NCBI GenBank assembly: GCA_903825645.1
Contig: CAIKBL010000018.1
Location: 1-46,125 of the forward strand
DNA length: 46,125 bases
Reading direction: 5' to 3'
DNA from: an uncultured Pseudomonadota bacterium
GTDB taxonomy: Bacteria; Pseudomonadota; Gammaproteobacteria; Ga0077536
In this document: positions 9,493-45,797 of the stretch, one piece after another
Numbering within the stretch: the first letter of the stretch is position 1
How the letters are laid out: each line of letters begins with the position of its first letter
Position numbers and translations under genes: made by a program
Notes under the pieces: generated by a model
Databases searched by the model: none
What the model saw: the letters and a program-made list of their open reading frames with translations, nothing else
What the model was told of the DNA's origin: nothing

Positions 9493-9555
9493 GTGATGTA
9501 ACTCGCCGCCCTCGGGTGCGCGACAGCTCCGCCGCCACGCACGTTTCCAGTCAGT

Positions 9556-10050: not shown

Positions 10051-10315
10051 GACCTTCCGAAATCAAAAATGGCTAGCCATTCTCAAAACGAACATTTGCG
10101 CCGAACTGGGGGACAGCGAACAGGCAATTTAGCGGGAAGGAGGTAGCGTTTTGACGAATCGATCATGATCAGTGAGCGACCTCATCACGCGCCGAGACGA
10201 CGTTGCCGGCATCCGTATCTTAGGATAGACGCGCGGCGGCTACCTTATTTGGGGTGCAGTATAGGGGGCGAAAAAATCCGCGGAGCGCGAACAGTGTTGG
10301 CTGCGCGGATGCAGT

Positions 10316-10344
10316 AGCGCTTTCCAGCAGCGCTGGAAAGCGCT
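10316..10344 (-). terminator. Strong hairpin directly downstream of amtB
   Basis: AGCGCTTTCCAGC (10316-10328) and its perfect reverse complement (10332-10344) form a 13-bp stem with a 3-base loop, 7 bp past the amtB stop. No clear U-run follows in the amtB direction, so it may act as a transcript-end stabiliser or as a terminator that does not need a long U tract. The rest of the gap 10051-10315 shows nothing. Confidence 0.5.
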
Positions 10345-10351
10345 TGACGTG

Positions 10352-11809
10352 CTACTCGATGCGCTCGCCGTGGATGGCAAGATCCAGGCCTTCACGCTCC
10401 TGATCTTCCGTTACACGGAGTCCGATCGTCATATCGATAACTTTCAGGATGATAAAGCTCATCACGAACCCGTAGACCAAGGTTGTCCCGATCCCGATTA
10501 ACTGTGTCATCACACTGCCGTCCAGGCCGCTGATCTCGTGACTGGCAAACACGCCTGTCAGCAAGGCGCCGACGATACCTCCGATACAATGCACACCGAA
10601 GGCATCCAGCGAGTCATCGTAGCCAAGCATCGATTTGAGGGACGTTGACGACAGGAAACAAATCACGCCAGCAACCGCACCGATGATGACCGCAGGTGTC
10701 GGGCCAACAAAGCCGGAAGCCGGGGTGATGGCAACCAGACCGGCAACGGCGCCAGAGGCGATCCCGAGCACACTGGGTTTACCCTTTACGAGCCACTCCA
10801 CAAACATCCAGGCAAGCGCTGCAGCGGCTGTCGCAATCTGCGTGGCAGCGAACGCCATCCCCGCACGGCCATCAGAAGCGACCGCCGAGCCGGCGTTGAA
10901 CCCGAACCAGCCTACCCACAGCAATGAGGCCCCGATGACCGTCAGAACCAAATTATGTGGCGGCATGGGCTCTTTGCCGTAGCCAACACGCTTGCCGAGC
11001 ACAAGGGCTGTTGCCAAGCCAGCGATACCCGCGTTGATGTGCACGACCGTACCACCGGCAAAGTCCAGAACGCCTTTCGCATTCAACCAGCCGCTACTTT
11101 CCCAGACCCAATGCGCGATAGGGCAATAAACGACCAGCAACCAGATCGACATGAACCAAAGCATGGCGGAGAACTTCATGCGCTCAGCAAAGGAACCGCA
11201 GATGAGCGCCGGCGTGATGATGGCGAACGTCAACTGATACATCGCATAGACGGTCTCAGGAATCGTGGTCGCAAGGTGCGATACGCTAAGCTTGCTGGTG
11301 TCATGCATGTAGACCATTCCCTGCATCATCAGTCGACTGAGTCCACCGAGATAGGGACTGCCCGGTGTAAAGGCCCAGCTGTAACCCACGATCCACCAAA
11401 GGATGGTGACCACACAGCAGATAGCGAAGCTCTGCATCAGGGTCGCGAGGATGTTTTTCTTCCGGACCATTCCGCCATAGAAGAGTGCGAGGCCAGGAAT
11501 AGTCATCATCAACACCAACGCCGTGGATGTCAGCATCCAGGCCGTGTCACCTGAATTAATCTTGTCGAAAGTGACTATAAACGGCTCAGTAGGTGCCGGA
11601 GGGGCTGCCGCTGCGGCCGGAGCAGCCGCAGCGGCGTTATCCGACGCTGCCGGAGCCGCTGCCGGAGCCGCTGCCGGAGCCGCTGCCGGAGCCGCAACCG
11701 TTGCCGCAGGGGGCGCCGAAGCATCATCGGCACGTGTGAATGCCGAGACGGTAAGAAGACCTGCGAACGTTAGGATCGCTACGCTCGCAAATCGGTTGGT
11801 TGGAATCAT
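10352..11809 (-). CDS. amtB: Ammonium transporter AmtB
   Basis: An Amt/MEP/Rh-family ammonium channel of 485 residues from ATG at 11809 (MIPTNRFASVAI), preceded by AAGGGGGT. The N-terminus is a signal peptide, then a roughly 50-residue Ala/Pro linker, then about 11 membrane helices starting at DTAWMLTSTALVLMMTIPGL. Family motifs are present: ALFYGGMVRKKN, the pore region DFAGGTVVHINAG with its histidine, and FNAGSA. The second pore histidine lies in DAFGVHCIGGIVGALLTG. The end, EDQEREGLDLAIHGE, matches the PII-responsive tail. A longer frame reaches 12112 but lacks homology. No glnK lies next to it, unlike the usual glnK-amtB pair. A sigma-54 promoter and an NtrC-type site lie upstream. Confidence 0.96.
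   Translation of the reverse strand: MIPTNRFASVAILTFAGLLTVSAFTRADDASAPPAATVAAPAAAPAAAPAAAPAASDNAAAAAPAAAAAPPAPTEPFIVTFDKINSGDTAWMLTSTALVLMMTIPGLALFYGGMVRKKNILATLMQSFAICCVVTILWWIVGYSWAFTPGSPYLGGLSRLMMQGMVYMHDTSKLSVSHLATTIPETVYAMYQLTFAIITPALICGSFAERMKFSAMLWFMSIWLLVVYCPIAHWVWESSGWLNAKGVLDFAGGTVVHINAGIAGLATALVLGKRVGYGKEPMPPHNLVLTVIGASLLWVGWFGFNAGSAVASDGRAGMAFAATQIATAAAALAWMFVEWLVKGKPSVLGIASGAVAGLVAITPASGFVGPTPAVIIGAVAGVICFLSSTSLKSMLGYDDSLDAFGVHCIGGIVGALLTGVFASHEISGLDGSVMTQLIGIGTTLVYGFVMSFIILKVIDMTIGLRVTEDQEREGLDLAIHGERIE
11649..11696. repeat. 12-bp tandem repeat encoding an Ala/Pro linker in amtB
   Basis: Four head-to-tail copies of a 12-mer (GCCGGAGCCGCT, the last ending GCA) lie inside amtB and encode repeated AAPA units between the signal peptide and the first channel helix. 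The copy number is likely to vary by slippage without breaking the frame. Confidence 0.85.
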
Positions 11810-11943
11810 TCGCACTGGATACCCCCTTAGGAAAGCCGGAAAAACGTTGACACATCTCATTGCGCTGAGCGGCTGACCTTCCCTGCGTACCTTGAGGCAG
11901 GGTCCTCGGTACGCAATGCCGCACAGCTTCTGTGAGAGGGGTT

Positions 11944-11959
11944 TGCATAACCCGTGCCA
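11944..11959 (-). promoter_or_regulatory. Sigma-54 promoter of amtB
   Basis: The reverse complement reads TGGCACGGGTTATGCA. It has the invariant GG and GC dinucleotides separated by 10 bases and differs from the TGGCAC-N5-TTGCW consensus at one position. It points towards amtB, whose start is 135 bp downstream. Sigma-54 control is the rule for ammonium transporters under nitrogen limitation. Confidence 0.75.
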
Positions 11960-12055
11960 GCACTCTTCCTCTCCGTGTGTGCCAACGGTGAGGCACATTC
12001 CGGACATCCCGGTCGATCTCGTCTGCCCCGACATCGCGCACTTAACGACAAGGCC

Positions 12056-12070
12056 GCACAAAAACGGTGC
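12056..12070. promoter_or_regulatory. NtrC-type enhancer site upstream of amtB
   Basis: GCAC-N7-GTGC (12056-12070, followed by A) matches the dyad of NtrC sites and lies about 100 bp upstream of the sigma-54 promoter, the expected enhancer position. The second base of the left half-site flank departs from the best consensus. Confidence 0.55.
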
Positions 12071-12229
12071 ATCGTCTCGCCGCGCAAATAGCCGCCGGAG
12101 GCGATCGCCCAACTCGCGACGCTTCTCCTATTTGGAAACTAAAACGAAGTGTTATTTGGGAAGACGCCGTTTTTCTCTAAAATCGCCGGCGCCCGGCCGG
12201 CACAGCGGACCCATCGGAGCGCCGCGGAT

Positions 12230-13705
12230 TTAGTCTCGGGTAAAACCGAAACGTGACGGTCGCCCCCAATCACACCGTCCCCTCAAGAAAGCGATCCAGC
12301 CAAGCATCGCCCCCAGATGTCGCAATAACTGGAAACTAAGGGGCTCTATGAGGGCGGCACCCAGGGCCCGGCCGAAGCGCGCGCCGTTTTGATTGCCGAC
12401 CCATCTGCCGTACAGGTAGACCGACCAGGCATGAAAGGCGAGATCCAACACCAGCTTACCGCTGACGATCCCGGCCACCGGAATCAAGACATCGAAGCGA
12501 CCGGTTGCCAGATAACCGAAAAGCAAAAAGAAGGCCGTCAGACCGTACAGCGGCTGTAAGGTATCGAAAGCCTTCACCGGCAGCATGAACAGGCCAAGGC
12601 AACCGTATCGCCTGTCTCCCACCATCGCACGATACCAATACTGGGTTTCCAGAAAACCGCCGAACCAACGTCGACGTTGCCGCAAGAACGCGGCGATAGT
12701 CCCGGGCGCTTCGGTACGCGCGCGCGCGTCGCCCAGAACCCGGAATCGCCAGTCTCGGCCGGAATCCACAGCGTAGCGACGCATCCGGTGGATCAACTCA
12801 TAGTCCTCGACCAGACATGCGGGATCGAACCCCCCCACCGCGAGGAGCGCATCGCGCCGAAACCCGGCGAAAGCCCCCGACACCAGTAACAAACTGTTTG
12901 CCTGCATCCAGGCATAACGTGCGAGGAAATTTCGAATATATTCATGCGTTTGAAACCATTCGAAAATTCGGCCACCCAGCGTGGATTCGCATACGGGGGT
13001 AATCACGCCGGTTGCCGCAACCAGGCCTGGCTCGTTGCCAAAAGCCCGACGAACGGCCGCGATCGCCCCAACGTCCAGCAGCGTATCCGCATCGACCGTA
13101 AGCACCACCTCCGTATCAAGCAATAAGATGGCCGCGTTAAGCGCCCGCGCCTTGCCGCCATGCGGAAGACGAAGCCAGAACAGCCCAGGAAACTGCGCGC
13201 TCGACGCGCTCAACTGACCCATCGCCGGTGCGACTAAGCCGTAACGCGCTGACAACAGCGTCGCGGACAGATCGCTCGACCCATCATCCGCAATCACAAT
13301 CCGATCGGGCGGCTCATGTTGGCTGCGCAATGCCGAAATCATCGCCGAGAGCACACGCGCCTCATTGTGCGCGGCGACAATAACGCCGACGCGGCACGGC
13401 TCCCCGGCAGGGCGGGCGCCACGGCTCTCCCGCAGCAGCGGCCAAGTCTGTCGGACCACGAACAACTGTAGACAGCTGTCGTACAGCACGTAGACGATGC
13501 CAACCGACCAGGCAAGTACGCCTCCACGCAGAAATCCGACTAACAGCAACAGCGTCCAAGCAAGAAAAATTCCCACGTGGATCAACGCGCTACGCAGTGG
13601 TGTCACCGGCGGCGAAAGCCGAGAAGATGCACGGGTGAGTGCCGAGGTAAACGAATCTGTCAATGCAGGGATCCCGAAGCGGCAGTACACGCGCCGCATG
13701 GGCAC
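12230..13705 (-). CDS. Membrane glycosyltransferase, family GT2
   Basis: A 491-residue processive-type GT2 enzyme of the IcaA/BcsA/NodC class. Two membrane segments lie near residues 40-85 (SALIHVGIFLAWTLLLLVG and the next hydrophobic stretch). They are followed by the GT-A domain: VGVIVAAHNEARV, IADDGSSD, the metal-binding TVDADT (DXD), LVEDYEL (catalytic base region) and the acceptor/product motif RQRRRW. Further membrane helices follow near residues 380-420 (LYGLTAFFLLFGYLA). Such enzymes polymerise or transfer sugars at the inner membrane. The polysaccharide cannot be deduced, as no partner genes are adjacent. It is divergent from the cytochrome b561 gene. Confidence 0.88.
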   Translation of the reverse strand: MPMRRVYCRFGIPALTDSFTSALTRASSRLSPPVTPLRSALIHVGIFLAWTLLLLVGFLRGGVLAWSVGIVYVLYDSCLQLFVVRQTWPLLRESRGARPAGEPCRVGVIVAAHNEARVLSAMISALRSQHEPPDRIVIADDGSSDLSATLLSARYGLVAPAMGQLSASSAQFPGLFWLRLPHGGKARALNAAILLLDTEVVLTVDADTLLDVGAIAAVRRAFGNEPGLVAATGVITPVCESTLGGRIFEWFQTHEYIRNFLARYAWMQANSLLLVSGAFAGFRRDALLAVGGFDPACLVEDYELIHRMRRYAVDSGRDWRFRVLGDARARTEAPGTIAAFLRQRRRWFGGFLETQYWYRAMVGDRRYGCLGLFMLPVKAFDTLQPLYGLTAFFLLFGYLATGRFDVLIPVAGIVSGKLVLDLAFHAWSVYLYGRWVGNQNGARFGRALGAALIEPLSFQLLRHLGAMLGWIAFLRGRCDWGRPSRFGFTRD

Positions 13706-34884: not shown

Positions 34885-35215
34885 ATGAAAACCGAAGAGC
34901 AGATCAGAGAGCAATCTCACTTGATCCGAAGTTCACTGGACGAGCGTGGACGGCGGGAATGGGCGGCTATCGGAAGCGATGGCGCTGGGCCATGGAGGGA
35001 TAGCGCGGGTGCATCGGGGCACGGGCATTGTGCCGTCGACGATAGAGAAAGGCATCCAGGCGCCGCGTAAGCGAGTGGAGGGAGAGCCTGAAGGGCAAAG
35101 ATGAGTGCGCGAGCCGGGTGGTGGGCTGCCGAGCGAGCGGGCGCAAGTTCCGGGTTTGCTGGGAGCACTGGCGGAAACCGTTATACGGACATCAGGCCTG
35201 GGCATCGGTCGATGA
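34885..35215 (+). pseudogene. ISAzo13-family transposase relic
   Basis: It starts MKTEEQIREQSHLIRSSLDE, then RGRREWAA. After a frameshift near 34970 it continues as EAMALGHGGIARVHRGTG followed by IVPSTIEKGIQAPRKR, the N-terminal helix-turn-helix pattern of ISAzo13-type transposases. A further shifted piece near 35110-35160 resembles the PGGG linker. The DDE catalytic part is absent. The fragment ends at the first attachment-like repeat block. Confidence 0.6.
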
Positions 35216-35336
35216 TAACCCGCCGAAACCGGGTCGACCGCGTCAGGTGCTGCATATCTACATGCCAAACTTACCGTCATATCTACCGCCAAAATATTCC
35301 GCTTGGGAGCGATAGATAACGCTAGATGCCGAAAGG
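35201..35336 (+). repeat. Attachment-site-like block 1 (next to integrase relic)
   Basis: Paired 10-mers CTTACCGTCA (35270) and TCTACCGCCA (35282) are 12 bp apart. After 18 bases come three 7-mers at a 10-bp period: CGATAGA (35310), CGCTAGA (35320) and CGAAAGG (35330). A TCGATGAT word at 35209 corresponds to the degenerate core of block 2, 69 rather than 71 bp ahead of the pair. From 35270 to 35336 it is nearly identical to block 5 (45638-45704). Confidence 0.75.
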
Positions 35337-35445
35337 GTCGAAACGCTTTGGCGATTACGCGATGCAAGCTGCGATCAATCGATTAGCGGCTACCAAAAAC
35401 GTCGGTCCTCTTGATTGCTGATCTATTCAGCCATGGAGTCTAGTG

Positions 35446-35745
35446 TGTACCGCCGTCAAGCCAGCTCGGCCTGGCGCTCAGCACCATCAAGAACCGGATG
35501 GCCGAACTGCGCTGGTGGGCCGAGAAGATCGGCAAACAGAAAGTCATCGCGCGCGACAACGACCACTACGGCATCGGCAACCGGCAGTACGTCACCAACG
35601 TCAGCAAGGCGCGCGAGCTATCCGGCACCGAGCTCGACCGCATCACCGACCCGTACACCGCGATGTCCTTGCGACTGCAGGCAGCATTCGGTCTGCAGCG
35701 AGGAGAGTCGATCAAGATCCCGCCAGAATGGGCCGACGGGGGCGG
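35446..35745 (+). pseudogene. Tyrosine integrase N-terminal/central fragment
   Basis: The frame reads SQLGLALSTIKNRMAELRWW, then KIGKQKVIARDNDHYGIGNR and later LQAAFGLQRGESIKIPPEWA. This matches phage-type integrases with separate N-terminal and catalytic Integrase_1 domains, which are common on ICEs and islands. It stops where the catalytic domain begins, so the Arg-His-Arg-Tyr residues are mostly missing. The frame runs without a break into a dabB fragment, which shows a deletion joint. It lies about 110 bp downstream of attachment-like block 1. Confidence 0.65.
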
Positions 35746-35749
35746 CACG

Positions 35750-35908
35750 ATTACCGCGGTGATGTGGTCCATCCTTCCCGCTCAATTGGCTCGCGATGCC
35801 GCAGATTCGATCGGCTTGATGGTTGCTACACTCATCGCCCTGATTGGGTGGGTGATCGTGCGTTTCTCCCGATGTTATTTGGAGGGCGAACCTGGACAGG
35901 CGCGCTAG
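35750..35908 (+). pseudogene. dabB: DabB-like proton-channel subunit, N-terminal fragment
   Basis: In the same frame as the integrase piece, the sequence continues ARDAADSIGLMVATLIALIG and then WVIVRFSRCYLEGEPGQAR, ending in TAG at 35906-35908. The motif VxRxSRxYLxGxPGxAR is the first conserved region of the NuoL-like DabB protein. Only about 40 residues of it remain. It sits between integrase and dabA relics, so an internal deletion has removed nearly all of dabB. Confidence 0.5.
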
Positions 35909-37540
35909 AGGTTTCCGACAAGGCGACAACCGAAGCACAGGCGGTCTGGCAGCGTGCCCAGGAAATCGCCTACCAATGGCCGCTGCTGAACGCACCGGCG
36001 CAGAGCCGTCCTCCGGCCGCGTGTGCTACCGCCGCCGTGCAAGCGGCGTTTTGCATCGATGTGCGTTACGAGGTCTTCCGGCGCGCGCTGGAGAGTGTCG
36101 CGCCGAATATCCAAACCTTGGGTTTCGCTGACTTCTTCGGTCTTCCCATTAGCTACACGCCAATTGGCACGGAAGCGACGCGACCACAGTTGCCTGGACT
36201 TCTGGCCCATTCGTTGACCGTCACCGACAGTTGCGGACAGCCCGACGAGGATCTAAAAATCGCAAGCCAGCGACGGGTGCGCCTGCACCGGACCGCGAGC
36301 TGGCAGCCATTTCAGCGCTTACCTGGTTCGGCGTTCACTTTGGTGGAGTCATTGGGTCTCGGTTACCTCGGCAAGCTCATCCGCCGCAGCCTTCCGATTG
36401 GCACCGACGGCCCCATGACGGATCTGTTTGCCCTCACCCCGGTGCAGACCCAGCAGCTTCGTCCCCAATTGGTCATGCCCGACGCGCAGGTGTCAGGCGA
36501 GCGGGTGGCTCTGGCTAGAGGCATTCTGGGAGCGATGAGTCTGACCGAGGGCTTTGCTCGCCTTGTACTGCTGGTAGGCTACGGTAGTCAAAGCGCCAAC
36601 AACCCACATGCGGCCGGGCTCGACTGTGGCGCCTGTTGCGGACAGACCGATGAGGTCAACGCCCGGGCGCTTGGCGAGGAATCAATCCTGATCCCCGATA
36701 CAACCTACTTCCTGACCGCCCTGCACAACACGACCACGGATGAAGTGGTGATCTTTGACCGGAAGATCGTGCCAGCTAGTCACGAGGGCGATCTGGAGCA
36801 ACTGGAAACGTTGCTATCTGCAGCAGGCCAGCGCGCGGGCAGAACGTGCACCTGCCTTGGGACTCGCCCACCTGGCCGAAAAGCCCAAAGTGCTGGCGAT
36901 TGCGATCAAGACACGTGCTCACGACTGGGCACAGACGCGCCCGGACTGGGGCTTGGCAAACAATGCCGCTTCCATTGTTGCGCCGCGTTGGCGTTCTCGC
37001 GGAATCGATTTGAAGGGGCGCTCTTTCCCGCATCATTACGATCATCGGCGCGATGTCGATGGCAGTATGCTGGAACTCATCATGACTGCCCCCATGATCG
37101 TCACGCACTGGTTCAACATGCAGTACCATGCATCCACCGTCGACAACATGCGTTACGGCAGCGGCAACAAAGTGCTCCACAACGTAGTCGGCGGGCGTAT
37201 CGGTGTGTTCAAGGGGAACACCGGTGATCTGCGCATCGGCTTGCCCAAGCAATCGATACATGACGGCATGCGCTACATGCATACACCGCTGCGCCTGTCT
37301 GTATTCATAGAAGCGCCACAGGCTGCTATCGATGTGGTTATCGCCCAGGACGCCATGGTTCGCAAGGTGCTCGACCATGTATGGCTGCATCTGTTTCAGA
37401 TCGACTCCGGTCTGCACACCCTGTCGCGCTACCGCGGTACCCGCTGGCAGGTGGTTACCGCCGGCGATGTCGCGGGGCGGACACAGGGCGCCGCCACGAT
37501 GTGCATACGGAGAGAACCAGTAGCCTCAGCGTTGGCGTAA
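35880..37540 (+). pseudogene. dabA: DabA (DUF2309) inorganic-carbon transporter subunit, truncated and frameshifted
   Basis: DabA is the carbonic-anhydrase-like cytoplasmic subunit of the DAB CO2/bicarbonate-accumulating complex. The remaining C-terminal two-thirds contains FCIDVRYEVFRRALE (zinc Cys and Asp) and LVGYGSQSANNPHAAGLDCGAC (zinc His and Cys). After a frameshift near 36830 it continues in another frame: RAERAPALGL, DIDLKGR-like FPHHYDHRRDVDG, WFNMQYHASTVDN, KVLHNVVGGRIGVF and WLHLFQIDSG. The N-terminus is replaced by the dabB/integrase joint. Zinc ligands are conserved, but the frame is broken, so no function is expected. Chemolithoautotrophs use this system for carbon supply, which fits the host. 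Confidence 0.85.
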
Positions 37541-37689
37541 ATTGAATGAGCAATTGCTCGAACACTTTCCATCCCGCACCGCGCGACACCATGCCCCATT
37601 CGGACAAAGCGAACCTTCCGAGCCGCCATGTCACTGCCGGGGCCGGACGCGTGTCCGCTTCGCGCTTGGCAGCCCAAACGCCCTTTTGC

Positions 37690-38580
37690 CGGCCGGAGGT
37701 TCTCGCGATGGATTGGAACGCGTCTGCCGGATCCGGGGATCCCTGCGCTCGACTGTCTACGCACAGCAAACGCGCGAATCGACCAGGACGGTACCGTTGG
37801 CGCGGTAACGACGGGGGCCAAAGCCCGCGCGGACCGATGCCGAGTTGTTGGCTGCGATTCGGGCTGATCTGGAAGCCTCACCTTTCACGGGCGAAGGGCA
37901 TCGCTAGGTTTGGGCTCGGTTGCGTATCCTGAAGGACATTCGTGTCTCCCGTACCCGGGTGTCGCGCCTGATCGTGAGCACGCGTTGTTGTCGCCTCACC
38001 GCCGGCCGCAGGGCGCGCCGCACGGGCACGATGGCACGATCACGACGGCTTGTCCTAACGACCTGTGGGGCACGGACAGAATCCGCATCGAAACCGGGGA
38101 TCAAGGCTGGGTCTGGGTATTCGCCGCGGTCGACCACTTCGATGCTTGCTGTGTCGGCGTCCATGCTGCCAAAACCGGCAATCGCTTCGCTGCCTTGCAG
38201 GCGATTGCCCAAGGACTCAAGACTGAATTCGGCTCGACAAGCGCCGAGGCGTGACGCGGCCTGAGCTTGCGCACGGACCACGGCGCGCAGTACACCGCAG
38301 ACGACTTCATCAATCAGATTAAGTTCTGGGGCATCGCGTCGAGCTTCGCCTTCGTCGCCTAGGCGCAAACCAACGGCGTCGACGAACGTTTCAACAGGCC
38401 CCTTAAGGAGCAAGCGATTTACGGTCGTGTCTTCAGAAACGTCGAGGAGGTTTGCGTCGCGGTCACCACGTTCAAGGACCCTTACAATCGCCATGGGCGT
38501 CGCGAAAAATCAGGCTTCAGATCACCCATTGAAGTCCGTCACGCTTATGCCTTGCAAAGGGCCGCCCAAGTCGCAAAACC
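37690..38580 (+). pseudogene. IS3-family transposase (OrfB-like) relic
   Basis: Pieces in two frames reconstruct the integrase-core transposase. One reads TDAELLAAIRADLEASPFTG followed by EGHR and a stop, then RLRILKDIRVSRTRV. The other reads ITTACPNDLWGTDRIRIETG, FAAVDHFDACCVGVH and, after TGA at 38252, LRTDHGAQYTADDFINQIKF. After TAG at 38360 it gives GVDERFNRPLKEQAIYGRVF and SPIEVRHAYALQRAA. The D, D and E catalytic residues are present, but at least two stops and one frameshift inactivate it. No terminal inverted repeats were identified. 38581-38693 is its tail or unassigned. Confidence 0.8.
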
Positions 38581-38693
38581 CTGTCCAATCAATCGGAGCT
38601 GGTACACCTTGTGGCGAAAAACACCATGCGCAGTCAGGCTGCGACAGATGTTGCCCATGCACACGAAAAGTACGGAGTACGATTTCGTTTTGG

Positions 38694-39032
38694 TCACGAT
38701 GTCCTGCGTCTCTGACTTTTTCGGGTTCGTTCCATAAAGTCATCAGGTTTGGTTTTTACCCACGCCACAAAATGCGCCATGTCCGAGTGTGTCAAAAGCG
38801 CGTCGACCGAGTTGAATTGCTTTGCCAACTCTGTTTCCGTTAACAGGGCATGAATCTGGCGGTGACAGATCCGGTGCAGGTACTCGGTGTATCTGCCCCC
38901 TTTGGACTTGGGCACCAGATGGTGCGCATCCCGCTGGCTGAGTGGAATCTTGCGCTCACACAGTGGGCAAATCAGGTCTAGCTGCGCAATCACCGGTCGT
39001 TCCTGCTGAAGCATTCGTCGGATGCGTCCCAT
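38694..39032 (-). CDS. HNH endonuclease-family protein
   Basis: A 112-residue protein with an HNH fold: CPLCERKIPLSQRDAHHLVP (Cys pair and the catalytic His pair), KSKGGRYTEYLHRICHRQIH and a C-terminal helical tail. The zinc-finger cysteines and the H-N-H-type residues are intact. Small HNH proteins of this kind accompany SRAP and umuDC genes in Burkholderiales plasmids and islands. It follows the decayed SRAP gene on the same strand by 24 bp. A role in DNA repair or cleavage is inferred. Confidence 0.8.
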   Translation of the reverse strand: MGRIRRMLQQERPVIAQLDLICPLCERKIPLSQRDAHHLVPKSKGGRYTEYLHRICHRQIHALLTETELAKQFNSVDALLTHSDMAHFVAWVKTKPDDFMERTRKSQRRRTS

Positions 39033-39055
39033 GGCTGAAGTGTGGCCTTCGCTGC

Positions 39056-39560
39056 TCAGGTGGTCCGCAGCTGCTCAGCAGGAAACTGTCGCATAAGACC
39101 CATGCTCTCTAATGGCTTGGTGCTGAGCCAGTCCGTGTACAGGTCCCGGGGCAAAACCACGACCATGCGCTTCTCATCTGTGGGCTTGTGAAACCCCATG
39201 ATCATATCATGGTCGTCTGCATTGATGGTCAGCATGGTGTAGCTGCCGGACCAGTTCACCATCAGTGCATTCAATCCGGGTGGCAATGGCCTTGCCGCTA
39301 CACCAGCCCGGCTCAGAGATGGTCTCGGCGGGAATGATGCAGTGCTGGCCTTGTTTTCAAGCATCCCGTAAGCGGCGCTTCTCTGCCACAGTTTCTGACC
39401 TTGCGTTGTAGGTGCTCCGGGTGATCTTTGTGTCCGTTGCCCAATGCGGCACAAGCCCAAAGAGGCCGTTCAAGGCTTCGAAGAAGCTGCCCATGTAGCC
39501 CGGCCTCGGGTCGTATTTTCCTGACTCGGGGGGAGGGCGCACACCGAAAGCTGCGCTCAT
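39056..39560 (-). pseudogene. SRAP (HMCES/YedK-type) abasic-site protein, frameshifted
   Basis: One frame gives FGVRPPPESGKYDPRPGYMG and then LFGLVPHWATDTKITRSTYN followed by ARSETVAEKRRLRDA, a conserved SRAP core, but then stops. Another frame gives the C-terminal part: YTMLTINADDHDMIMGFHKP, DEKRMVVVLPRDLYTDWL and MRQFPAEQL. The start lacks the catalytic MC dipeptide that forms the DNA-protein crosslink, and the middle is lost. The gene is therefore inactive. It is divergent from umuD. Confidence 0.75.
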
Positions 39561-39644
39561 AGCGCTACGCTTCTTGGAGAGATTGGTAATGGCTGCACAT
39601 GGGCAAATCGTAATCTCACGGTGACTTTTTCAATGGCTCAAATA

Positions 39645-39664
39645 TACTCGATCAATGAACAGTA
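39645..39664 (+). promoter_or_regulatory. LexA-like SOS box overlapping the umuD start
   Basis: TACT at 39645 and ACAGTA at 39659-39664 occupy the two ends of a 20-base window. The right half matches the LexA consensus exactly and the left half lacks the GT of CTGT. The ATG at 39655 lies inside it. An operator across the start codon would repress umuD directly. Confidence 0.45.
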
Positions 39665-40083
39665 TTAATTGCAGTGATTCACCGGCGCCGGTTTCCACCG
39701 TGTCGCTTCAGGGGCTGCTCCTGAAAAACCGGGTGTGTGCTGGCTTTCCCTCGCCGACGGAAGACTTGGGCGCGCAGCGGATCGATTTGGCGGCGCTGCT
39801 GATCAAGCACTCCGAGGCCACCTACTTTCTGCGCGCCAACGGGCACTCCATGGTCGAGGCGGGGATTTTCGACAACGACATTTTGATCGCAGATAAAGCA
39901 GTCAAGCCTCGACAAGGCTACATTGTGGACGGTGACTTCACCGTCAAGCAGTTGTACCAGCGCGCAGGTCGCGTCAAGCTCAAGGCAGCGAATCTCACCT
40001 TTCCCGAGATAGTCCCCAAAGACGGTCAGACCGTCGAGGTCTGGGGCGCAGTGACGGCCACCCTCAAACAGTTTCAGGACTGA
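39655..40083 (+). CDS. umuD: UmuD-like SOS mutagenesis protein / LexA-fold autoprotease
   Basis: A 142-residue S24 peptidase-fold protein. UmuD self-cleaves on RecA filaments and then forms DNA polymerase V with UmuC. The cleavage region reads VCAGFPSPTEDL, with Ala-Gly at the cut site. The nucleophile is in ANGHSMVEAGI and the general-base lysine in DGDFTVKQL. About three residues usually found before DGDFTVK are missing, shortening that strand. An alternative GTG start inside (VSLQGLLLKN) would avoid overlap with the SOS box. It is followed by cho and umuC on the same strand. Confidence 0.9.
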   Translation: MNSINCSDSPAPVSTVSLQGLLLKNRVCAGFPSPTEDLGAQRIDLAALLIKHSEATYFLRANGHSMVEAGIFDNDILIADKAVKPRQGYIVDGDFTVKQLYQRAGRVKLKAANLTFPEIVPKDGQTVEVWGAVTATLKQFQD

Positions 40084-40102
40084 GCGTGAGAACGCAGTCG
40101 CC

Positions 40103-40972
40103 ATGCAGCTGAACCAGCGCCGTCGCACAGAGTTCGACGCCACGCGGGTTTACGAGTACCCGGCGCATTTGCGTGCGGCCGTGGGAGAGATACCAACTGC
40201 ACCGGGGGTGTACGTCTTTCATGGAGAGGAGGGCGACTTGCCCCTGTACATCGGTAAGAGCGTGAACCTGCGCCACCGGGTGCTGTCCCACCTGCGCAAT
40301 GCCGACGAAGCCTTGATGCTGCGCCAAACTAAGCGCATCAGCCACATCCGCACTGCAGGGGAGATTGGTGCACTCTTGCTGGAAGCCAGCATGATCAAGC
40401 AGCAACAACCCTTGTTGAACCAAAAGCTTCGCCGAAGCCGCCAGCTCTGCTCCCTTCAAATGCAGGACGGCAAGCTGCAGGTGGTTTATTCCAAAGACCT
40501 GAATTTCGCCACCCGGCCCGATCTGTATGGGCTGTTCGCCAGCAGGCAATCGGCGTTGCAGGCCCTGCGTGACTTGGCTGATCTTCAAAAGCTCTGTTAC
40601 GGGGTGCTCGGGCTGGAGAAATTGGCGAAGGGGAAACCTTGCTTCAGGGCCATGATGCGGCAATGCGCCGGGGCCTGTAGGGGCGGCGAGAGCCGAGAAG
40701 TGCACGATGCGCGGCTGATGAATGCGCTCGATCGGATGCGTGTGAATTGCTGGCCATTCTCTGGAGCCATTGGCTTGGTGGAGCGACATGGAGAGGATTA
40801 CCAAATGCATGTGGTTCGCAACTGGACGTACCTTGGCAGCGTCGTGGATCCAAAATCTGCGACTGCAGAGGCCAAGAAGCTCGCTCGCATGGCCGCTGGC
40901 TTCGATGCAGATGGCTACAAGATTTTGTGCAGGCCGATCTTGAGCGGTACCGCCGAAATCGTTCTACTGTGA
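40103..40972 (+). CDS. cho: Excinuclease Cho (UvrC-like GIY-YIG nuclease)
   Basis: A 289-residue homologue of the UvrC N-terminal domain that makes the 3' incision in nucleotide excision repair. The GIY-YIG domain is visible: TAPGVYVFHGEEGDLPLYIG, then KSVNLRHRVLSHLR, ISHIRTAGEIGALLLEASMI and KQQQPLLNQKLRR. A cysteine-containing C-terminal region (CFRAMMRQCAGACRGGE) follows. Length matches Cho. It sits between umuD and umuC, 19 bp after umuD, forming an SOS-type repair cassette, and looks intact. Confidence 0.9.
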   Translation: MQLNQRRRTEFDATRVYEYPAHLRAAVGEIPTAPGVYVFHGEEGDLPLYIGKSVNLRHRVLSHLRNADEALMLRQTKRISHIRTAGEIGALLLEASMIKQQQPLLNQKLRRSRQLCSLQMQDGKLQVVYSKDLNFATRPDLYGLFASRQSALQALRDLADLQKLCYGVLGLEKLAKGKPCFRAMMRQCAGACRGGESREVHDARLMNALDRMRVNCWPFSGAIGLVERHGEDYQMHVVRNWTYLGSVVDPKSATAEAKKLARMAAGFDADGYKILCRPILSGTAEIVLL

Positions 40973-40992
40973 CCCCATCCGAATCTGGTCCG

Positions 40993-41196
40993 ATGTTTGC
41001 ACTTTTCGATGGCAACAACTTTTATGTGCGCTGTGAACGCGTGTTCCGGCCCAGCCTCAATGGTCGCCCGGTTGTGGTGCTGTCCAACAATGACTGTTGT
41101 GCAATCGCCCGATCCAACGAAGCCAAAGCACTCGGGATCGCCATGGGCGCCCCCCAATTGAGACCTCTCAACGTCCCATCTCACAACGTTGAATAG
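40993..41196 (+). pseudogene. umuC: UmuC DNA polymerase V subunit, truncated N-terminus
   Basis: ATG at 40993 gives MFALFDGNNFYVRCERVFRP and then PVVVLSNNDCCAIARSNEAK followed by ALGIAMGAP, the normal Y-family polymerase start including the first catalytic Asp. Homology ends after about 57 residues. It is followed by 10 unrelated residues and a stop, and then by attachment-like block 2. The palm acidic pair, fingers and little-finger domains are gone. GTG at 40969, overlapping the cho stop, is an alternative start. The island repeats have probably replaced the rest. Confidence 0.85.
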
Positions 41197-41217
41197 TCGC
41201 ACCTCCATTCGTGCGAA

Positions 41218-41631
41218 TTTTACCGTCACATCCTGTTCCAGCCTTACGGTAAAAAATTTTCGTGGTGCACGTCTCGATTTTTTGTCGTCAGATTTACGGT
41301 CAGACTGGAGCCATCCCCCCGATAGATCTCGACAGATATTCCCTATGCGAGACAAGCACTTGGCATTTATTTTCGATAGCTCTCGATAGACCCTGAAAGA
41401 CGCTGAATCATTTCCGCTCGATGATCAACGAGCCTGCCAAGTTATGGATTTGCAAGGTACTGGCCGCCGACTCCGCGCTTTTTACCGTCACTTTTACTGT
41501 CAATCTGATCTGAGCCTCAAAACTCGCTCTCAGGATCTATCGGCATCTATCGACGGCTGTCGGCGCCCCCTTGAGCCCCGTCTTTCGCGGTCTATCGAGG
41601 TCAATCGGATGGTTCGTCGATAGTCGATACC
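41218..41631. repeat. Attachment-site-like block 2 (core and arms on both sides)
   Basis: In order: an inverted pair, TTTTACCGT (41218) with ACGGTAAAA (about 41246). Then 10-mers TTTGTCGTCA (41281) and TTTACGGTCA (41293). Then 7-mers CGATAGA (41320) and CGACAGA (41330), and triplet CGATAGC/CGATAGA/TGAAAGA at 41374, 41384 and 41394. A degenerate core, ATTTCCGCTCGAT, is at 41410. Then 10-mers TTTACCGTCA (41481) and TTTACTGTCA (41493), followed by inverted triplets at 41536/41546/41556 and at 41581/41591/41601. All pairs have a 12-bp and all triplets a 10-bp period. Confidence 0.75.
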
Positions 41632-41727
41632 GACGGTGAGCGTCCATATCGGGTTCTGGAAGCGCAGAAATGGGGCCGGCATAAAACACATCAAGCTACT
41701 GTTCCAAAAAACTTTTATGCCAATTTT

Positions 41728-41937
41728 TTTACTGTCATGTCGCTGGGCCAGCAGCGCAGCACAGAGATCTCGTCATCGTGATCACGTCGGGTGCCGTCGA
41801 GTCATCCGGTCTGGTAACCGTAACCGTCAATCAGCAATCACTGACCCTGCGCCAGCAGACTCTCGTAGGGAATCTTCAGCCCGTCATGCAGGCTCTTGAC
41901 CATGCGCAGGCTCAAGCCTCGCTTGCGATTAAGCACT
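41728..41937. repeat. 210-bp direct repeat, copy 1 (truncated antitoxin 3' end)
   Basis: It aligns without gaps to 43587-43796. Over the gene part (from about 41755) the copies differ at very few positions. The repeat begins at TTTACTGTCATG and covers the last codons of the HigA-type antitoxin (VLNRKRGLSLRMVKSLHDG to SLLAQGQ), then stops abruptly inside that gene. A second boundary motif, TTTACCGTCATGG, follows at 41956. Confidence 0.85.
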
Positions 41938-41995
41938 GACTTTTCCCCAACCTTTTTTACCGTCATGGCGGAAAGGGGCCACTAGAGCGAAAACA

Positions 41996-42310
41996 TCACA
42001 CCGCGACCGGCTGAAAGACACGGATCCTCGGCGTGAGCTTGCCTCGCAACTCCCGGTCCGCGACCCGCATGTCGTACTCGGACTGCAGGTTCAGCCAGAA
42101 CCGGGGCTCCATGCCGAAGAACAACCCGAGCCGAAGCGCGGTGTCCGCAGTGATGGGTCGTTGCCCGTTCACCAGCTCGCTGATCCTGCTCGGCGAGACA
42201 TCGATGTCCGAAGCGAGCTGGCGAGCACTGATGCTCATGGGCTTCATGAAATCCTCCAGCAGGATCTCGCCCGGATGAATCTCTTCGAGCAACTTGGCCA
42301 TGTTTCGCAT
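41996..42310 (-). CDS. higA: HigA-type antitoxin (XRE helix-turn-helix)
   Basis: A 104-residue antitoxin of the HigA/VapI addiction-module family. MRNMAKLLEEIHPGEILLED leads into the helix-turn-helix ISARQLASDIDVSPSRISEL, then VNGQRPITADTALRLGLFFG and MEPRFWLNLQSEYDM. It binds its own promoter and neutralises the adjacent toxin. ATG at 42310 lies 2 bp after the toxin stop, and ATG at 42301 is an alternative. A longer frame to 42625 reads through the toxin gene and is not real. The toxin-first order is typical of hig operons. Confidence 0.93.
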   Translation of the reverse strand: MRNMAKLLEEIHPGEILLEDFMKPMSISARQLASDIDVSPSRISELVNGQRPITADTALRLGLFFGMEPRFWLNLQSEYDMRVADRELRGKLTPRIRVFQPVAV

Positions 42311-42312
42311 TC

Positions 42313-42591
42313 CTAGTGGTAGTCCACGATCTCGACGCGGTGCGCTCCATCGGTCTTCCAGACAAAGCAGATCCGCCACTGGTCGTTGATGCGAATGCTG
42401 TGCTGTCCCTTTCGGTCGGCCTTCAGGGCCTCCAGCTGGTTGCCCGGCGGGACGCGCAGGCTGGCCAGCTCGGTGGCAGCATGGATCTGCAGCAACTTGC
42501 GCCTGGCGACGCGCTCGATGTTCCGGAAGCGGGATACCGCGCGGCTGTGAAACAAGGCCTCCGTATCGGCGCATGCGAACGAGCGGATCAT
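42313..42591 (-). CDS. higB: HigB/RelE-type toxin
   Basis: A 92-residue ribosome-dependent mRNA interferase of the RelE/ParE superfamily (plasmid maintenance killer group). It reads MIRSFACADTEALFHSRAVS, then RFRNIERVARRKLLQIHAA and ELASLRVPPGNQLEALKADR. The C-terminal sheet is HSIRINDQWRICFVWKTDGA, then VEIVDYH. Length and motifs are complete, so this pair appears intact. It lies just upstream of higA on the minus strand, 31 bp from the end of unassigned sequence trailing the traD relic. Confidence 0.93.
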   Translation of the reverse strand: MIRSFACADTEALFHSRAVSRFRNIERVARRKLLQIHAATELASLRVPPGNQLEALKADRKGQHSIRINDQWRICFVWKTDGAHRVEIVDYH

Positions 42592-42859
42592 AGCTAATCC
42601 TGATCCGTATGAGAGGTTCCGTCAAGCGGAACGGGCCATCCAGACCATAGATACGGTCCGGCGGCTACGGTGGCTGAGCCGGCCCGGGCGCACGAAGCGC
42701 CCAGGCTGCCAGACTGCATCCGACCCGCGCCACTCAAACGTGTCGCCGATTACCGAGCTTGGCGGCACTGTCGCGCCGGTTCCTATCACCACTTCGATGC
42801 TCGACCGCTGTAGAACATCTCCTTGGCGAACGCCGGTTCGATCAGACACCCCTGGCGAA

Positions 42860-43198
42860 GATGGAACCATCTGCTCGGCGACCGAATCGTTCGTGTCGGA
42901 GACCGACGACACGACGGTCGAGACCACGTGCACCTCGGGCAGCTGGCTGATCAACCGCTCGGCGGTGGCCACCTCCTTCACTCGCAACATGATCAGGGGT
43001 GTTGAAGTTGCCGGCGATCTGTCCGGCCTCGGCGAGTGAGCCGATGCGGGCTTCCACGTCCGAGCAGGTCTGCGTGTACGCCGATACCTGAAACCCCGCC
43101 CCGCCCGCCTTGTTGAGCAGCGGGATGAACTCGTCGCCGAATAGCTCGTTGAACTGGTCGGCGTGGATCACGATGTGCCGCGGCCGCGGCCGAGTCAA
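42860..43198 (-). pseudogene. traD: TraD-type conjugative coupling protein fragment
   Basis: One frame reads HIVIHADQFNELFGDEFIPL and then LNKAGGAGFQVSAYTQTCSD followed by VEARIGSLAEAGQIAGNFN. After a frameshift near 42995 a second frame reads MLRVKEVATAERLISQLPEV and HVVSTVVSSVSDTNDS. These are the C-terminal ATPase segments of ICE-type TraD (TraG/VirD4 superfamily). The 5' part is cut at about 43200 by attachment-like block 3. The unassigned frame continues to 42622 without recognisable homology. This is evidence that an integrative conjugative element once lay here. Confidence 0.75.
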
Positions 43199-43226
43199 AG
43201 CTTCTCACGAATTCTGGAGCGGCTTC

Positions 43227-43466
43227 CGATAGTCCACGATAGACCTCGATAGATCTCAAAAGCCCCCTACTCCCACTCGATCATCAATAAGCCTTTCAAG
43301 CTGTTGATTTACAAGGAACTGGCCGCTGCGCCCGAACTTTTTACCGTCACTTTTACCGTCAATCTGATTTGAGCCTCAAAACTCGCTCTCAGGATCTATC
43401 GGCATCTATCGACGGCTGTCGGCGCACCTTTGAGCCCCACCTTTCGGGGTCTATCGGGGTGTATTG
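43227..43466. repeat. Attachment-site-like block 3 with guaA-like core
   Basis: Triplet CGATAGT (43227), CGATAGA (43237), CGATAGA (43247). Core CTACTCCCACTCGATC (43267-43282), whose reverse complement reads ATCGAGTGGGAGTAG, encoding IEWE-stop as at the end of GuaA. Exactly 71 bp after the core A (43269) are TTTACCGTCA (43340) and TTTACCGTCA (43352). Inverted triplets follow at 43395/43405 and 43440/43450/43460. From the core to 43466 it is closely similar to block 2. Confidence 0.78.
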
Positions 43467-43586
43467 ACTTGCGCAGTGCCAATGAGGAGCGGTTACATGC
43501 GCTGCCGGTCCTGTGAAATAGGCTGCGAAATGCGACACCATCAAATGACTTAAGTCCTTGCCATGGATGGTTTATTTCGCACTATT

Positions 43587-43796
43587 TTTACCGTCATGAC
43601 GCCGCCCTGGCGGCACAGCACAGAGATCTCGTCATCGTGATCACGTCGGGTGCTGTCGAGTCATCCGGCCTGGTAACCGTAACCGTCAATCAGCAATCAC
43701 TGACCCTGCGCCAGCAGACTCTCGTAGGGAATCTTCAGCCCGTCATGCAGGCTCTTGACCATGCGCAGGCTCAAGCCTCGCTTGCGATTAAGCACT
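43587..43796. repeat. 210-bp direct repeat, copy 2 (within higA of the second pair)
   Basis: It is the counterpart of 41728-41937, starting with TTTACCGTCATG and running into the intact antitoxin gene. Here the gene continues beyond the repeat, so this is the parental copy. Confidence 0.85.
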
Positions 43797-44056
43797 TCGG
43801 ACACGCGGCCGCTCGGCCCGATGAAAGGCTCGAGATCACGCGCGGTCAGGCCTTGCTGCTCCATGCGGAACTTGATGGCCTCGACGGGGTCGGCCGGGCC
43901 GAAGTCGTAGTGCTTGCTCTCGTAGGCCTCGACGAGCGTCACCAGCACATCACGCTCGTCCGCCTCCGGGGTTTGTTCCTCGGCCTGGAATATGGCCTCG
44001 AGCCGGCGGAACACCGCCCTCAGGTCGTCGTCGTTTCGGATCGGCTTAATAGTCAT
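43697..44056 (-). CDS. higA: HigA-family antitoxin (XRE)
   Basis: A 119-residue antitoxin from ATG at 44056 (MTIKPIRNDDDLRAVFRRLE). It has the acidic linker typical of the larger HigA group (EQTPEADERDVLVTLVEAYE) and a helix-turn-helix near TARDLEPFIGPSGRVSEVLN, ending RKRGLSLRMVKSLHDGLKIP. An upstream start at 44104 overlaps the toxin more and is less likely. It overlaps the toxin end by 11 bp. Its 3' end is duplicated as a dead fragment 1.86 kb to the left. Confidence 0.93.
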   Translation of the reverse strand: MTIKPIRNDDDLRAVFRRLEAIFQAEEQTPEADERDVLVTLVEAYESKHYDFGPADPVEAIKFRMEQQGLTARDLEPFIGPSGRVSEVLNRKRGLSLRMVKSLHDGLKIPYESLLAQGQ

Positions 44057-44354
44057 TGACGTTCTCCACATCGATGCGGTCGTACTGGGCATGGGTGCCC
44101 ACAAACTTCACCCAGGCGATGCCTGCTCGGTACTGCATTTCCACCACCAGCCGGTACTTGTTGCCGCCAATGTTAAACACCACGCGGTTGTTGCCACAGA
44201 TGCTGGCGTTGGCGTGCTGGTCCTTGACATCCTGCGGTGAGGCCCAAGTCGCCTTGACGGCTTCGTTGTACCAACTGTGCAACGGACCACGCGCATCACC
44301 GCAGCCGGGTCGGCCCCAAGATTTCTTCAGACTGCTTTTGGCGATGACCCTCAT
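44046..44354 (-). CDS. higB: HigB-family toxin (mRNA interferase)
   Basis: A 102-residue HigB toxin (the family partnering large HigA). ATG at 44354 gives MRVIAKSSLKKSWGRPGCGD, then PLHSWYNEAVKATWASPQDV and ANASICGNNRVVFNIGGNKY. It ends RLVVEMQYRAGIAWVKFVGT followed by HAQYDRIDVENVNDY. These are the conserved RNase fold strands with GNNRVVFNI and the final FVGTHAxYD motif. An upstream extension to 44417 shows no homology. The pair seems intact and autoregulated by its antitoxin, by family knowledge. Confidence 0.93.
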   Translation of the reverse strand: MRVIAKSSLKKSWGRPGCGDARGPLHSWYNEAVKATWASPQDVKDQHANASICGNNRVVFNIGGNKYRLVVEMQYRAGIAWVKFVGTHAQYDRIDVENVNDY

Positions 44355-44402
44355 GCGGACGAATTTCTCCCTTTTTGGGAGCTTCGTCAATCGCAGCCAT
44401 TC

Positions 44403-44640
44403 GCCTCCTCGCCCCAAACCTTGTTCAGCATGGGCTGGGCGCTGATGGTCTGGTCCAGAGCAGCCCTTGCCAGGGTCAAAACAGGGCCAAGCCCCCCTGC
44501 AGTGCCTCGATCTGGGCCCTTCAGCCCCTGCACCGCGCGGTGTCGGCAGTTCCTGGATCGATGGGGGGAGAGTCGATCATGCTCGCAGCCGCGGGCCGAG
44601 AACTAGGTTTGGGCCATGAGATGTTCAGGTCGTGATCCCG
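44403..44640 (-). pseudogene. Unrecognised gene remnant
   Basis: The minus strand carries a short start-like MIDSPPIDPGTADTARCRG, then a stop. In another frame a plausible helical C-terminus, VLTLARAALDQTISAQPMLN, is followed by KVWGEEANGCD. The second piece reads like a real protein end, but I do not recognise the family. It may belong to the same mobile element as traD or to a restriction system. Bases 44641-44827 show nothing more. Confidence 0.3.
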
Positions 44641-44827
44641 ACACTGATCGGCTTGCCAGTCGGCCTATCGGAATATCGCACCGTACCCGTCGTGAATCGA
44701 CCCGACACTTTTCCGCGCAAATCCGTATCTACAGCTAAGGGCTTGTGGCGTGTCCACGTGCCTAGCCAACCAGACTCGAGCACATGATGAAACTGCTACC
44801 AAACACTTCGTGTCACGGTGCGGGAGA

Positions 44828-44894
44828 CTTACCGTCAAATCTACCGCCAAAAGAATCCGCTTGAACGCGATAGACGGCGATAGACCGCGAATGG
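44828..44894 (+). repeat. Attachment-site-like block 4
   Basis: Paired 10-mers CTTACCGTCA (44828) and TCTACCGCCA (44840), 18 bases, then CGATAGA (44868), CGATAGA (44878) and CGAATGG (44888). It has the same spacing as blocks 1 and 5. No convincing core lies 71 bp upstream. It forms the 3' boundary of the orphan toxin gene, whose frame runs into it. Confidence 0.75.
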
Positions 44895-45236
44895 CTGGAA
44901 CGGCCTCGCAGGAGCCGGCAGAGAGACCATGCTCAATCGAAGAAACAAGCATGCGCATCCTCGCCTATCTGATTGCTGTCGGCGCTTGTTTCCACCGCCA
45001 AAGAACACAATCAGCGATTCGCCGTCCTTCGCCAGACAAATCCGATAAGCCGAACCCCAATCGATCACGTATTCGCCGATACCCGCAAACCACTTCACAT
45101 TGGACGTGTTGCCGAGTTCCATGCGCAGTTTCGCGGTCGTAACTTTCGCCGCCGCCTGCGCCTCTAGGCTGTCAAACCATTCGGCGTACGGACTTAACCC
45201 ATCCGGGCGAATGTATTCCTCTACCCGGATTTTCAT
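44841..45236 (-). CDS. Orphan RelE/HigB-type toxin with altered C-terminus
   Basis: The first 85 residues match addiction-module killer proteins: MKIRVEEYIRPDGLSPYAEW, FDSLEAQAAAKVTTAKLRME and IDWGSAYRICLAKDGESLIV, then FFGGGNKRRQQSD. The usual end (a helix such as DI..AxxYWxDY) is lost. In the main frame it reads on for about 45 residues into block 4, and in the next frame a short GEDAHACFFD ending is visible, which indicates a frameshift. No antitoxin gene follows. A perfect palindrome lies upstream. It is probably inactive or weakened, otherwise an orphan toxin would be harmful. Confidence 0.65.
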   Translation of the reverse strand: MKIRVEEYIRPDGLSPYAEWFDSLEAQAAAKVTTAKLRMELGNTSNVKWFAGIGEYVIDWGSAYRICLAKDGESLIVFFGGGNKRRQQSDRRGCACLFLRLSMVSLPAPARPFQPFAVYRRLSRSSGFFWR

Positions 45237-45245
45237 TGGGATATA

Positions 45246-45261
45246 GTAACGTTTACGTTAC
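45246..45261. promoter_or_regulatory. Palindromic operator-like site upstream of the orphan toxin
   Basis: GTAACGT-TT-ACGTTAC has two perfect 7-bp arms and lies 10 bp before the toxin start. A site of this type fits autoregulation by a toxin-antitoxin complex. The cognate antitoxin is missing here. Confidence 0.5.
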
Positions 45262-45394
45262 CTATTGGCAAGCAACGAACGGATCATGGTGTGGGGGAGT
45301 CGGCGATGTTACTCGAGGATTCTCGAAGCGCCGTGAGACACCATTGCGAATATGCCTTTATTTATAGGCTTTGACGTCGCCTCGCAGTTCATCT

Positions 45395-45704
45395 GACGGT
45401 AAATACCACGAGCAAACTGCTCAGAAAACTTTTACCGTCAGATTTACCGTCAAAAAGTTTCGCTAGGGGGTCGGAGGCCAAAAATACGGCATAGCACCAA
45501 CCGTTATTTTTCAGAGGCTTGCGCGTTCACGCAATAGATCGCGATAGATGCCGAAAGGCCCTTTTCACTCCCACTCAATTGTCTCCGGCAATTATAAGCG
45601 CCTGAAACTGTTAGTTTTTTCCTAAGCGTACAACGAACTTACCGTCAGATCTACCGCCAAATAATTCCGCTTGGGGACGATAGACGGCGATAGATGCCGA
45701 AAGG
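45395..45704 (+). repeat. Attachment-site-like block 5, most complete, with guaA-like core
   Basis: An inverted TGACGGTAAA lies near 45394. Then TTTACCGTCA pairs at 45431 and 45443, and triplet CAATAGA/CGATAGA/CGAAAGG at 45532, 45542 and 45552. The core TCACTCCCACTCAATTG (45565-45581) in reverse complement reads ACAATTGAGTGGGAGTGA, encoding TIEWE-stop. Exactly 71 bp after the core A (45567) the pair CTTACCGTCA (45638) and TCTACCGCCA (45650) follows, then 18 bases and triplet 45678/45688/45698. This is a full arm-core-arm arrangement. Confidence 0.8.
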
Positions 45705-45797
45705 GCCAAGGCTCTTTGGCAGCCATGCCAAGCGACTGGGGCTTCATTGGTCAGGATTTTCAGTTTCGCCATCTTGGGCGAGCCGCTGCGGGGGAGA

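Follow-up and report, generated by a model that had tools for sequence, protein, structure and literature searches.

The 3' end of guaA is an established integration site with the core GAGTGGGA, as set out in the excerpts of two papers (PMC9376610 and PMC7775301, citing Harmer et al. 2017 and Song et al. 2012). The guaA islands and ICEs described in those excerpts, among them GIsul2, ICERspD18B and the islands of Song et al. 2012, have features in common with the sites considered here: insertion at the guaA 3' end, the core GAGTGGGA, a P4-type integrase, an alpA gene nearby and toxin-antitoxin (TA) cargo. GIsul2 also contains a third, internal att site that bounds a mobile sub-unit. The guaA 3' flank is likewise the target of the epsilon15 cluster of the IntSXT subgroup, which includes the epsilon15 phage and CMGI-3 (PMC8138268). 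The window discussed below is the whole 46,125-nucleotide stretch that was analyzed, from an uncultured gammaproteobacterium (contig CAIKBL010000018.1). Its right end holds an array of repeat blocks that very probably represents stacked, partly decayed scars of islands integrating at the guaA 3' end, among which a fragment of an Integrase_1 gene would be a passenger only.

Block 1 (35270-35336) and the right half of block 5 (45638-45704) agree at 58 of 67 bases and are co-oriented, in line with the original prediction of near-identical repeats in the same orientation, and over 35268-35352 and 45636-45720 the identity is 71 of 85 positions. The background for such a 67-mer match is far lower: the best other match in positions 1-35000 reached 33/67, and the best in 200 shuffled windows reached 36. 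In both stretches, a TTACCGTCA-type dimer comes first and a CGATAGA-type dimer second. The window holds six TTACCGTCA dimers, all on the plus strand, and a genome-wide scan with the dimer TTACCGTCANNTYTACCGYCAAA at ≤2 mismatches recovered six copies in the 4.1-Mb genome, each of them within the window and all on the same strand; the backward control of this pattern had no match in the genome at the same tolerance. Related blocks lie at 41.2 to 41.6, 43.2 to 43.5, 44.8 and 45.4 to 45.6 kb.

An att profile was built from six sites of other genomes, five beside guaA and one (L136) in a stretch without guaA. The strongest nhmmer matches in the window were 41273-41430 (E value of 1.9e-21), 45430-45589 (2.1e-14) and 45638-45703 (1.9e-12), followed by block 1 itself at 35270-35336 on the plus strand (an att arm consisting of the TTACCGTCA dimer and a GATAGA dimer; 4e-11), an isolated att arm at 44828-44887 on the plus strand (9.1e-9), 43218-43284 (5e-6) and weaker pieces of these sites. 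The controls reached 0.026 at best for the reversed window and 0.076 for 20 pair-shuffles, and a seven-site profile that included the genome's own guaA gave the same picture. Judged by sequence, there is little doubt in our view that the blocks are attL-, attR- or attP-type sites, or halves of such sites, of genomic islands that would integrate at the guaA 3' end.

The distribution of these sites in other genomes is narrow. A class-wide scan with the dimer at ≤1 mismatch found it in 7 of 369 genomes, the backward control giving one match in one other genome, and among 36 genomes of the same order only the window's own genome carried it at this tolerance. In the six genomes besides its own, the dimer lies at guaA (G241, G234, G360 and G168) or near tadA (G061 and G272; G168 has both). 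The viral contigs held no exact match to the dimer pattern, and a DNA search of plasmids returned five weak records. In the window's own genome, such sites occur at guaA and on a third contig. The former lies directly after the guaA stop codon on contig C74, with an E value of 1.1e-30 against a model built without it; the latter, on contig C62 (12750-13030, corresponding to L201 3750-4022), is a further far-side (P') arm with a perfect core and several extra CGATAG motifs. Islands with these att sites at guaA/tadA carry QatA-D (L121 2079-7069), QatA-C (L118 2201-6211), an E2/E1/JAB protein with a metallo-hydrolase-like protein (L122 1220-4409) or HipBA (L199 2943-4716); the Qat islands, in two other genomes, lie near tadA, and the HipBA pair of G004 lies between guaA and tadA.

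In G241, the integrase next to guaA shows the domains Arm-DNA-bind_3, Phage_int_M and Phage_integrase. Homologues of this guaA-type integrase were drawn from genomes, plasmids and viral contigs at 60 loci, 27 of which could be scored; at 32 loci, all of them on viral contigs, the upstream stretch was too short, and L175, a partial match, was set aside. Arm motifs were present upstream of 10 of the 27, each with three to five TACCGTCA-type motifs within up to 600 bp, and 17 had none. Their presence follows identity to the G241 integrase, with 10 of 13 at 58 to 100% and 0 of 14 at ≤41%. The control word for TACCGTCA was found upstream of none of the 27 integrases; for CGATAG a clean control is lacking, since its control word, GATAGC, shares bases with the motif and reaches scores of up to 3. 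These arms are missing from three relatives at 58 to 60% identity (L126, L127 and L181), of which two stand beside guaA, and the arms therefore mark only a subset of guaA integrases. In a quick tree, 9 of the 10 arm-bearing integrases cluster (0.92) and L137 falls outside; at L137, four of the five TACCGTCA motifs lie between core and integrase, and there are no CGATAG dimers. The best-conserved islands show the order guaA, core (GAGTGGGA), CGATAG dimer, CGATAG dimer, TACCGTCA dimer, further TACCGTCA motifs and integrase start. The cognate integrase stands on the TTACCGTCA side of the block in the nine arm-bearing loci whose order was read, and the Integrase_1 relic of the window stands on the opposite side. 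One sampled plasmid, the circular, 3975-bp p5 of Sphingomonas parapaucimobilis (L180), is annotated only with guaA, a guaA-type integrase and an AlpA-family gene, and is possibly an excised mini-element.

Within the genus, G004 has an att site at guaA; at the guaA ends of G002, G003 and G005 no arms were found, the model matching the guaA end only. In two genomes of the genus, one of them G004, guaA and tadA share a contig and a strand, separated by 7.2 and 9.5 kb. In the window, tadA lies at 7963-8388, oriented as expected, and guaA with its att site sits close to the end of a different contig, which is not joined to the window in the assembly; the right ends of the window and of the guaA contig share no 15-mers. 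No recognizable guaA-type integrase or piece of one was found in the window (best tblastn E value of 0.62), and none in the genome at E ≤1e-60, so we regard the array as a remnant and not as an active island. As for how it arose, islands would have been integrated at the guaA 3' end by a tyrosine integrase of the P4/epsilon15-like type that carries an arm-binding domain at its N terminus, with TACCGTCA and CGATAG as the words that this arm domain and/or an AlpA-like excision factor would read. Repeated integration at one site was probably followed by loss of the integrase and transfer genes. The function of the arms, the recombination and the sequence of steps are all inferred.

Extended cores lie on one strand at 45565 (0 mismatches), 41408 (2) and 43267 (2), each with arm sequence on both sides, and the core GAGTGGGA is exact at 43271 and 45569 on the minus strand. 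As part of the same strongly favored explanation, and as far as sequence can tell, the right end of the window would comprise three or four tandem units, each ending in a core. Unit I is best read as spanning about 35198-41430, with the Integrase_1 relic, dabBA debris, an HNH gene and SOS-like genes. A doubtful candidate for its degenerate guaA-type core lies at 35198-35220 on the minus strand, spaced from the arm roughly as expected, and differs from the 41408 core by one 1-base gap and one mismatch; its score near 35205 against the 41408 motif is equalled by 0.1% of 5000 random 36-mers, and four other core motifs find nothing (25 to 96%). Its right end, at 41273-41430 on the plus strand, consists of an integrase-side (P) arm and a core, which is the best match of the six-site profile. 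Unit II is best read as 41408-43284, with HigBA and a TraD relic. Its left end, a core with a P' arm (41403-41612, plus strand), aligns with L119 4391-4191 at 67% identity (1e-14), and its right end is a P-arm remnant with a core (43218-43284, plus strand; TCCCACTC at 43271). Unit III is best read as 43267-45589, with a HigB pair and a small TA-like open reading frame (ORF). At its left end, a core with a P' arm (43268-43471, plus strand) is an 87% repeat of 41414-41601 and aligns with L119 at 61% (4e-15); at its right end stand a P arm and the perfect core at 45565 (45430-45589, plus strand). Units II and III start with stretches that are 87 to 94% identical.

The fourth unit is best read as starting at 45565, where a core and an arm, the right half of block 5 (45565-45704, plus strand), form the left end of a unit that leaves the window. 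A P' profile was built on four copies, two from the window, one from G168 and one from C62, and its matches on these four are no test; this applies to 41403-41612 (2.3e-62) and to 43268-43471. The stretch 45565-45663 lies outside that model and matches it at 1.8e-6. The core-to-dimer distance at 45565 is 75, as at 41408 and 43267. The arm at 45638 has a P-like spacing to its GATAGA dimer, yet lies at P' distance from its core, and for this reason the P and P' labels at 45638 and 35270 are uncertain. Block 1 and 45638-45704 look like half-sites of one type. It had been proposed that these two blocks once bounded a single element of 10.4 kb; one full and one partial att junction, with the cores at 41408 and 43267, lie between them, and because of these junctions and of the likeness of the two half-sites, the 10.4 kb are best read as three tandem units.

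The dabBA genes, SOS-like genes and TA modules expected between the two blocks are all present there. In unit I, the start of dabB is fused to dabA at 35804-37387 on the plus strand; Proton_antipo_N matches just below the cut-off (7.2e-5), and DabA matches in two frames, at 4.5e-87 over profile positions 244-570/747 and at 3.8e-81 over 567-747/747, with a frame change near 36830. This operon for inorganic carbon transport is decayed, since the dabB start is joined to dabA at about residue 244 and dabA shifts frame further on. An HNH protein is encoded at 38694-39032 on the minus strand (PF01844, 1.3e-4). The SOS-like cassette at 39655-41196 on the plus strand comprises a umuD-like S24 peptidase gene (PF00717, 1.1e-19), a putative UvrC/Cho-like ORF and a truncated start that is presumably umuC; the ORF at 40103-40972 in this cassette has no Pfam match. 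The umuC fragment breaks off immediately ahead of the arm motif at 41221, in the place expected for an integrase. Unit II contains a remnant copy (41721-41937, minus strand; direct repeat D1, 94%) of the stretch containing the 3' end of the unit III antitoxin gene, covering residues 104-135 of its product. There follow a HigBA pair at 41996-42591 on the minus strand (PF05015, 4.4e-14; HTH_3, 6.9e-8), which is 88% identical over 637 bases to the unit adjoining guaA in G168, and a relic of the ICE coupling protein TraD at 42842-43198 on the minus strand (TIGR03754, 5.6e-27 over 493-552/643). Unit III has a HigB toxin gene (PF09907, 6.9e-30) paired with an antitoxin ORF without a Pfam match at 43697-44360 on the minus strand, and a small ORF at 44950-45236 on the same strand with no Pfam match at 0.01, which we presume to be RelE/HigB-like. 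The guaA-tadA interval may be a defense hotspot in which TA and anti-phage modules gather, with Qat (two genomes), AbiE, HigBA and HipBA as instances.

The original prediction placed an integrase fragment about 110 bp after block 1, and one is found there, starting about 126 bp past the block. It is a Phage_int_SAM_2/Integrase_1 tyrosine recombinase relic, truncated at both ends, at about 35462-35747 on the plus strand. It matches residues 65-159 of a homologue of 287 residues at 88% identity and complete genes at up to 91% over residues 2-93; DNA identity over 35468-35747 reaches up to 93.6%. Its 95 residues match Phage_int_SAM_2 (65-90/91) and then Integrase_1 (4-53/149) in the correct order, weakly (E values of 0.21 and 0.12), and both domains are clear in complete members of its family. 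The catalytic domain is incomplete, with residues 65-159 of 287 covered and a conserved Arg replaced: position 141 is Gln in the relic and Arg in 97 of 97 homologous loci scored, an Arg that we take to be catalytic Arg I. A search of the own genome with PF12835 was uninformative, with no match there but none in 14 controls either. The relic's relatives were surveyed at 100 loci, 80 kept with flanks from 140 relatives found in the scan and 20 from relatives of the genome. PFGI-1-type genes surround one of them: the L008 gene lies near STY4534-type (just below the cut-off), PFL_4669, PFGI-1 ParB, DUF932 and RadC genes. TraD relatives occur at 6 of the 100 loci. The relic probably derives from an ICE, for which we infer the PFGI-1 type as the likely source, and it plausibly arrived, like the TraD piece and some of the TA genes, with ICEs of this type.

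Could the repeats be sites of this Integrase_1 recombinase, the two blocks having bounded one 10.4-kb element? The closeness of relic and block, and the near identity and shared orientation of the two blocks, fit such a pairing, and TA and SOS-like genes do occur near Integrase_1 genes elsewhere: the unit III HigB pair has counterparts at 81 to 83% DNA identity in 5 of the 100 loci, and at L057 a 62% homologue of the HNH protein and a umuD-like gene share one contig with an Integrase_1 gene. The check proposed with the original prediction, a search for the repeat block upstream of intact homologues, speaks against it. Upstream regions were scored at 90 loci (eight had no usable gene start, one had too short an upstream region, and in L025 the gene starts at the locus edge), and none has the block. 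More than one TACCGTCA-type motif was found upstream of none of the 90, a single one upstream of 2 (control word, 1), and CGATAGA upstream of 4 (control, 5). Across whole loci, the six-site att profile matched 1 of 100 (L015, 3.9e-48; next best, 0.2), and there the block lies between the guaA 3' end and the start of a different integrase, with the Integrase_1 gene 2.5 kb away. Since the homologues lack the block upstream, the pairing of the repeats with Integrase_1 is refuted, and together with the two junctions with cores between the blocks this makes the single-element reading very improbable. That the blocks are element-related stands, in the sense of recombination (att) sequences of integrative elements, but not those of the relic's integrase family; the relic is most likely passenger debris and not a recombinase using these repeats. 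Inverted repeats, mostly flanking the gene and by eye unlike the blocks, occur at 13 Integrase_1 loci. In ICE-like loci, the Integrase_1 gene lies about 600 to 800 bp inside one of two 44- to 128-bp inverted repeats, about 4 to 9 kb apart (L007, L008 [8969-13384], L011, L012, L013, L016, L020, L031, L036, L037, L039, L043 and L047); in L008, the module bounded in this way includes DUF932, RadC and STY4534-type genes. An integron-like array run by the Integrase_1 recombinase, which would have joined the blocks, the TA genes and the integrase scrap, was dropped because the homologues lack the blocks; an integron with attC hairpins and IntI was dropped as well, as direct-repeat dimers make up the blocks and their connection with guaA accounts for them.

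A different way to account for the TA genes between the cores would be integron-like cassettes at proteobacterial guaA 3' ends: short att-bounded TA or anti-phage units, with guaA cores and P' arms, that would be stacked, lost and swapped singly by a guaA-type integrase acting in trans from visiting islands, in the manner of CIMEs. G168 has a 1.35-kb unit of core, HigBA, P' arm and core directly after guaA, and the window has a close HigBA between cores; on C62, an AbiE pair (L201 4074-5761) starts right after a P' arm and core. In G168, the second guaA core is directly followed by a module of two genes (L119 4482-6262) that is AbiE-like by eye only, PADLOC giving no match. However, only a handful of units were seen, excision and exchange are hypothetical, and the window cores are partly decayed, a pattern that simple accretion and deletion would give as well; we consider singly exchanged cassettes unlikely. 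Several window blocks adjoin TA genes, as would be expected if they were iterons or regulatory repeats that had been copied together with TA operons, but the site directly after the genome's own guaA, the fixed spacing to the guaA core and the position upstream of integrases make this explanation extremely improbable. Stacked scars of guaA islands remain the preferred reading.

How does this array compare with known systems? It shares with PFGI-1/SPI-7-type ICEs, which carry Integrase_1 genes (the L008 gene set), a TraD relic, but the window keeps scattered fragments only, and the blocks are absent from 99 of the 100 Integrase_1 loci. CIMEs and island accretion yield tandem att-bounded units without an integrase of their own, and the units of the window are likewise att-bounded, tandem and without integrase, although their mobility here is hypothetical. 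The likeness to epsilon15 was assessed on the integrases, that of epsilon15 being 53% identical to that of G241. For guaA islands and ICEs, the published excerpts describe 19- to 20-bp core repeats only (PMC9376610 and PMC7775301), whereas the window has longer arms with TACCGTCA and CGATAG dimers, decayed units and no integrase. L181, which we take as GIsul2-like by its neighbors alpA, repA and repC, belongs to the loci without these arms. The arm words are not mentioned in the titles or abstract starts of the literature searched, which is no proof of their absence from the full texts. An arm and core profile locates such scars even where no integrase gene is present. What appeared to be a pair of repeat and integrase becomes a readable scar of repeated guaA integration: guaA islands are a known kind, of which the window is a decayed example, and the arm layout and the att-bounded TA units are modest additions to it.
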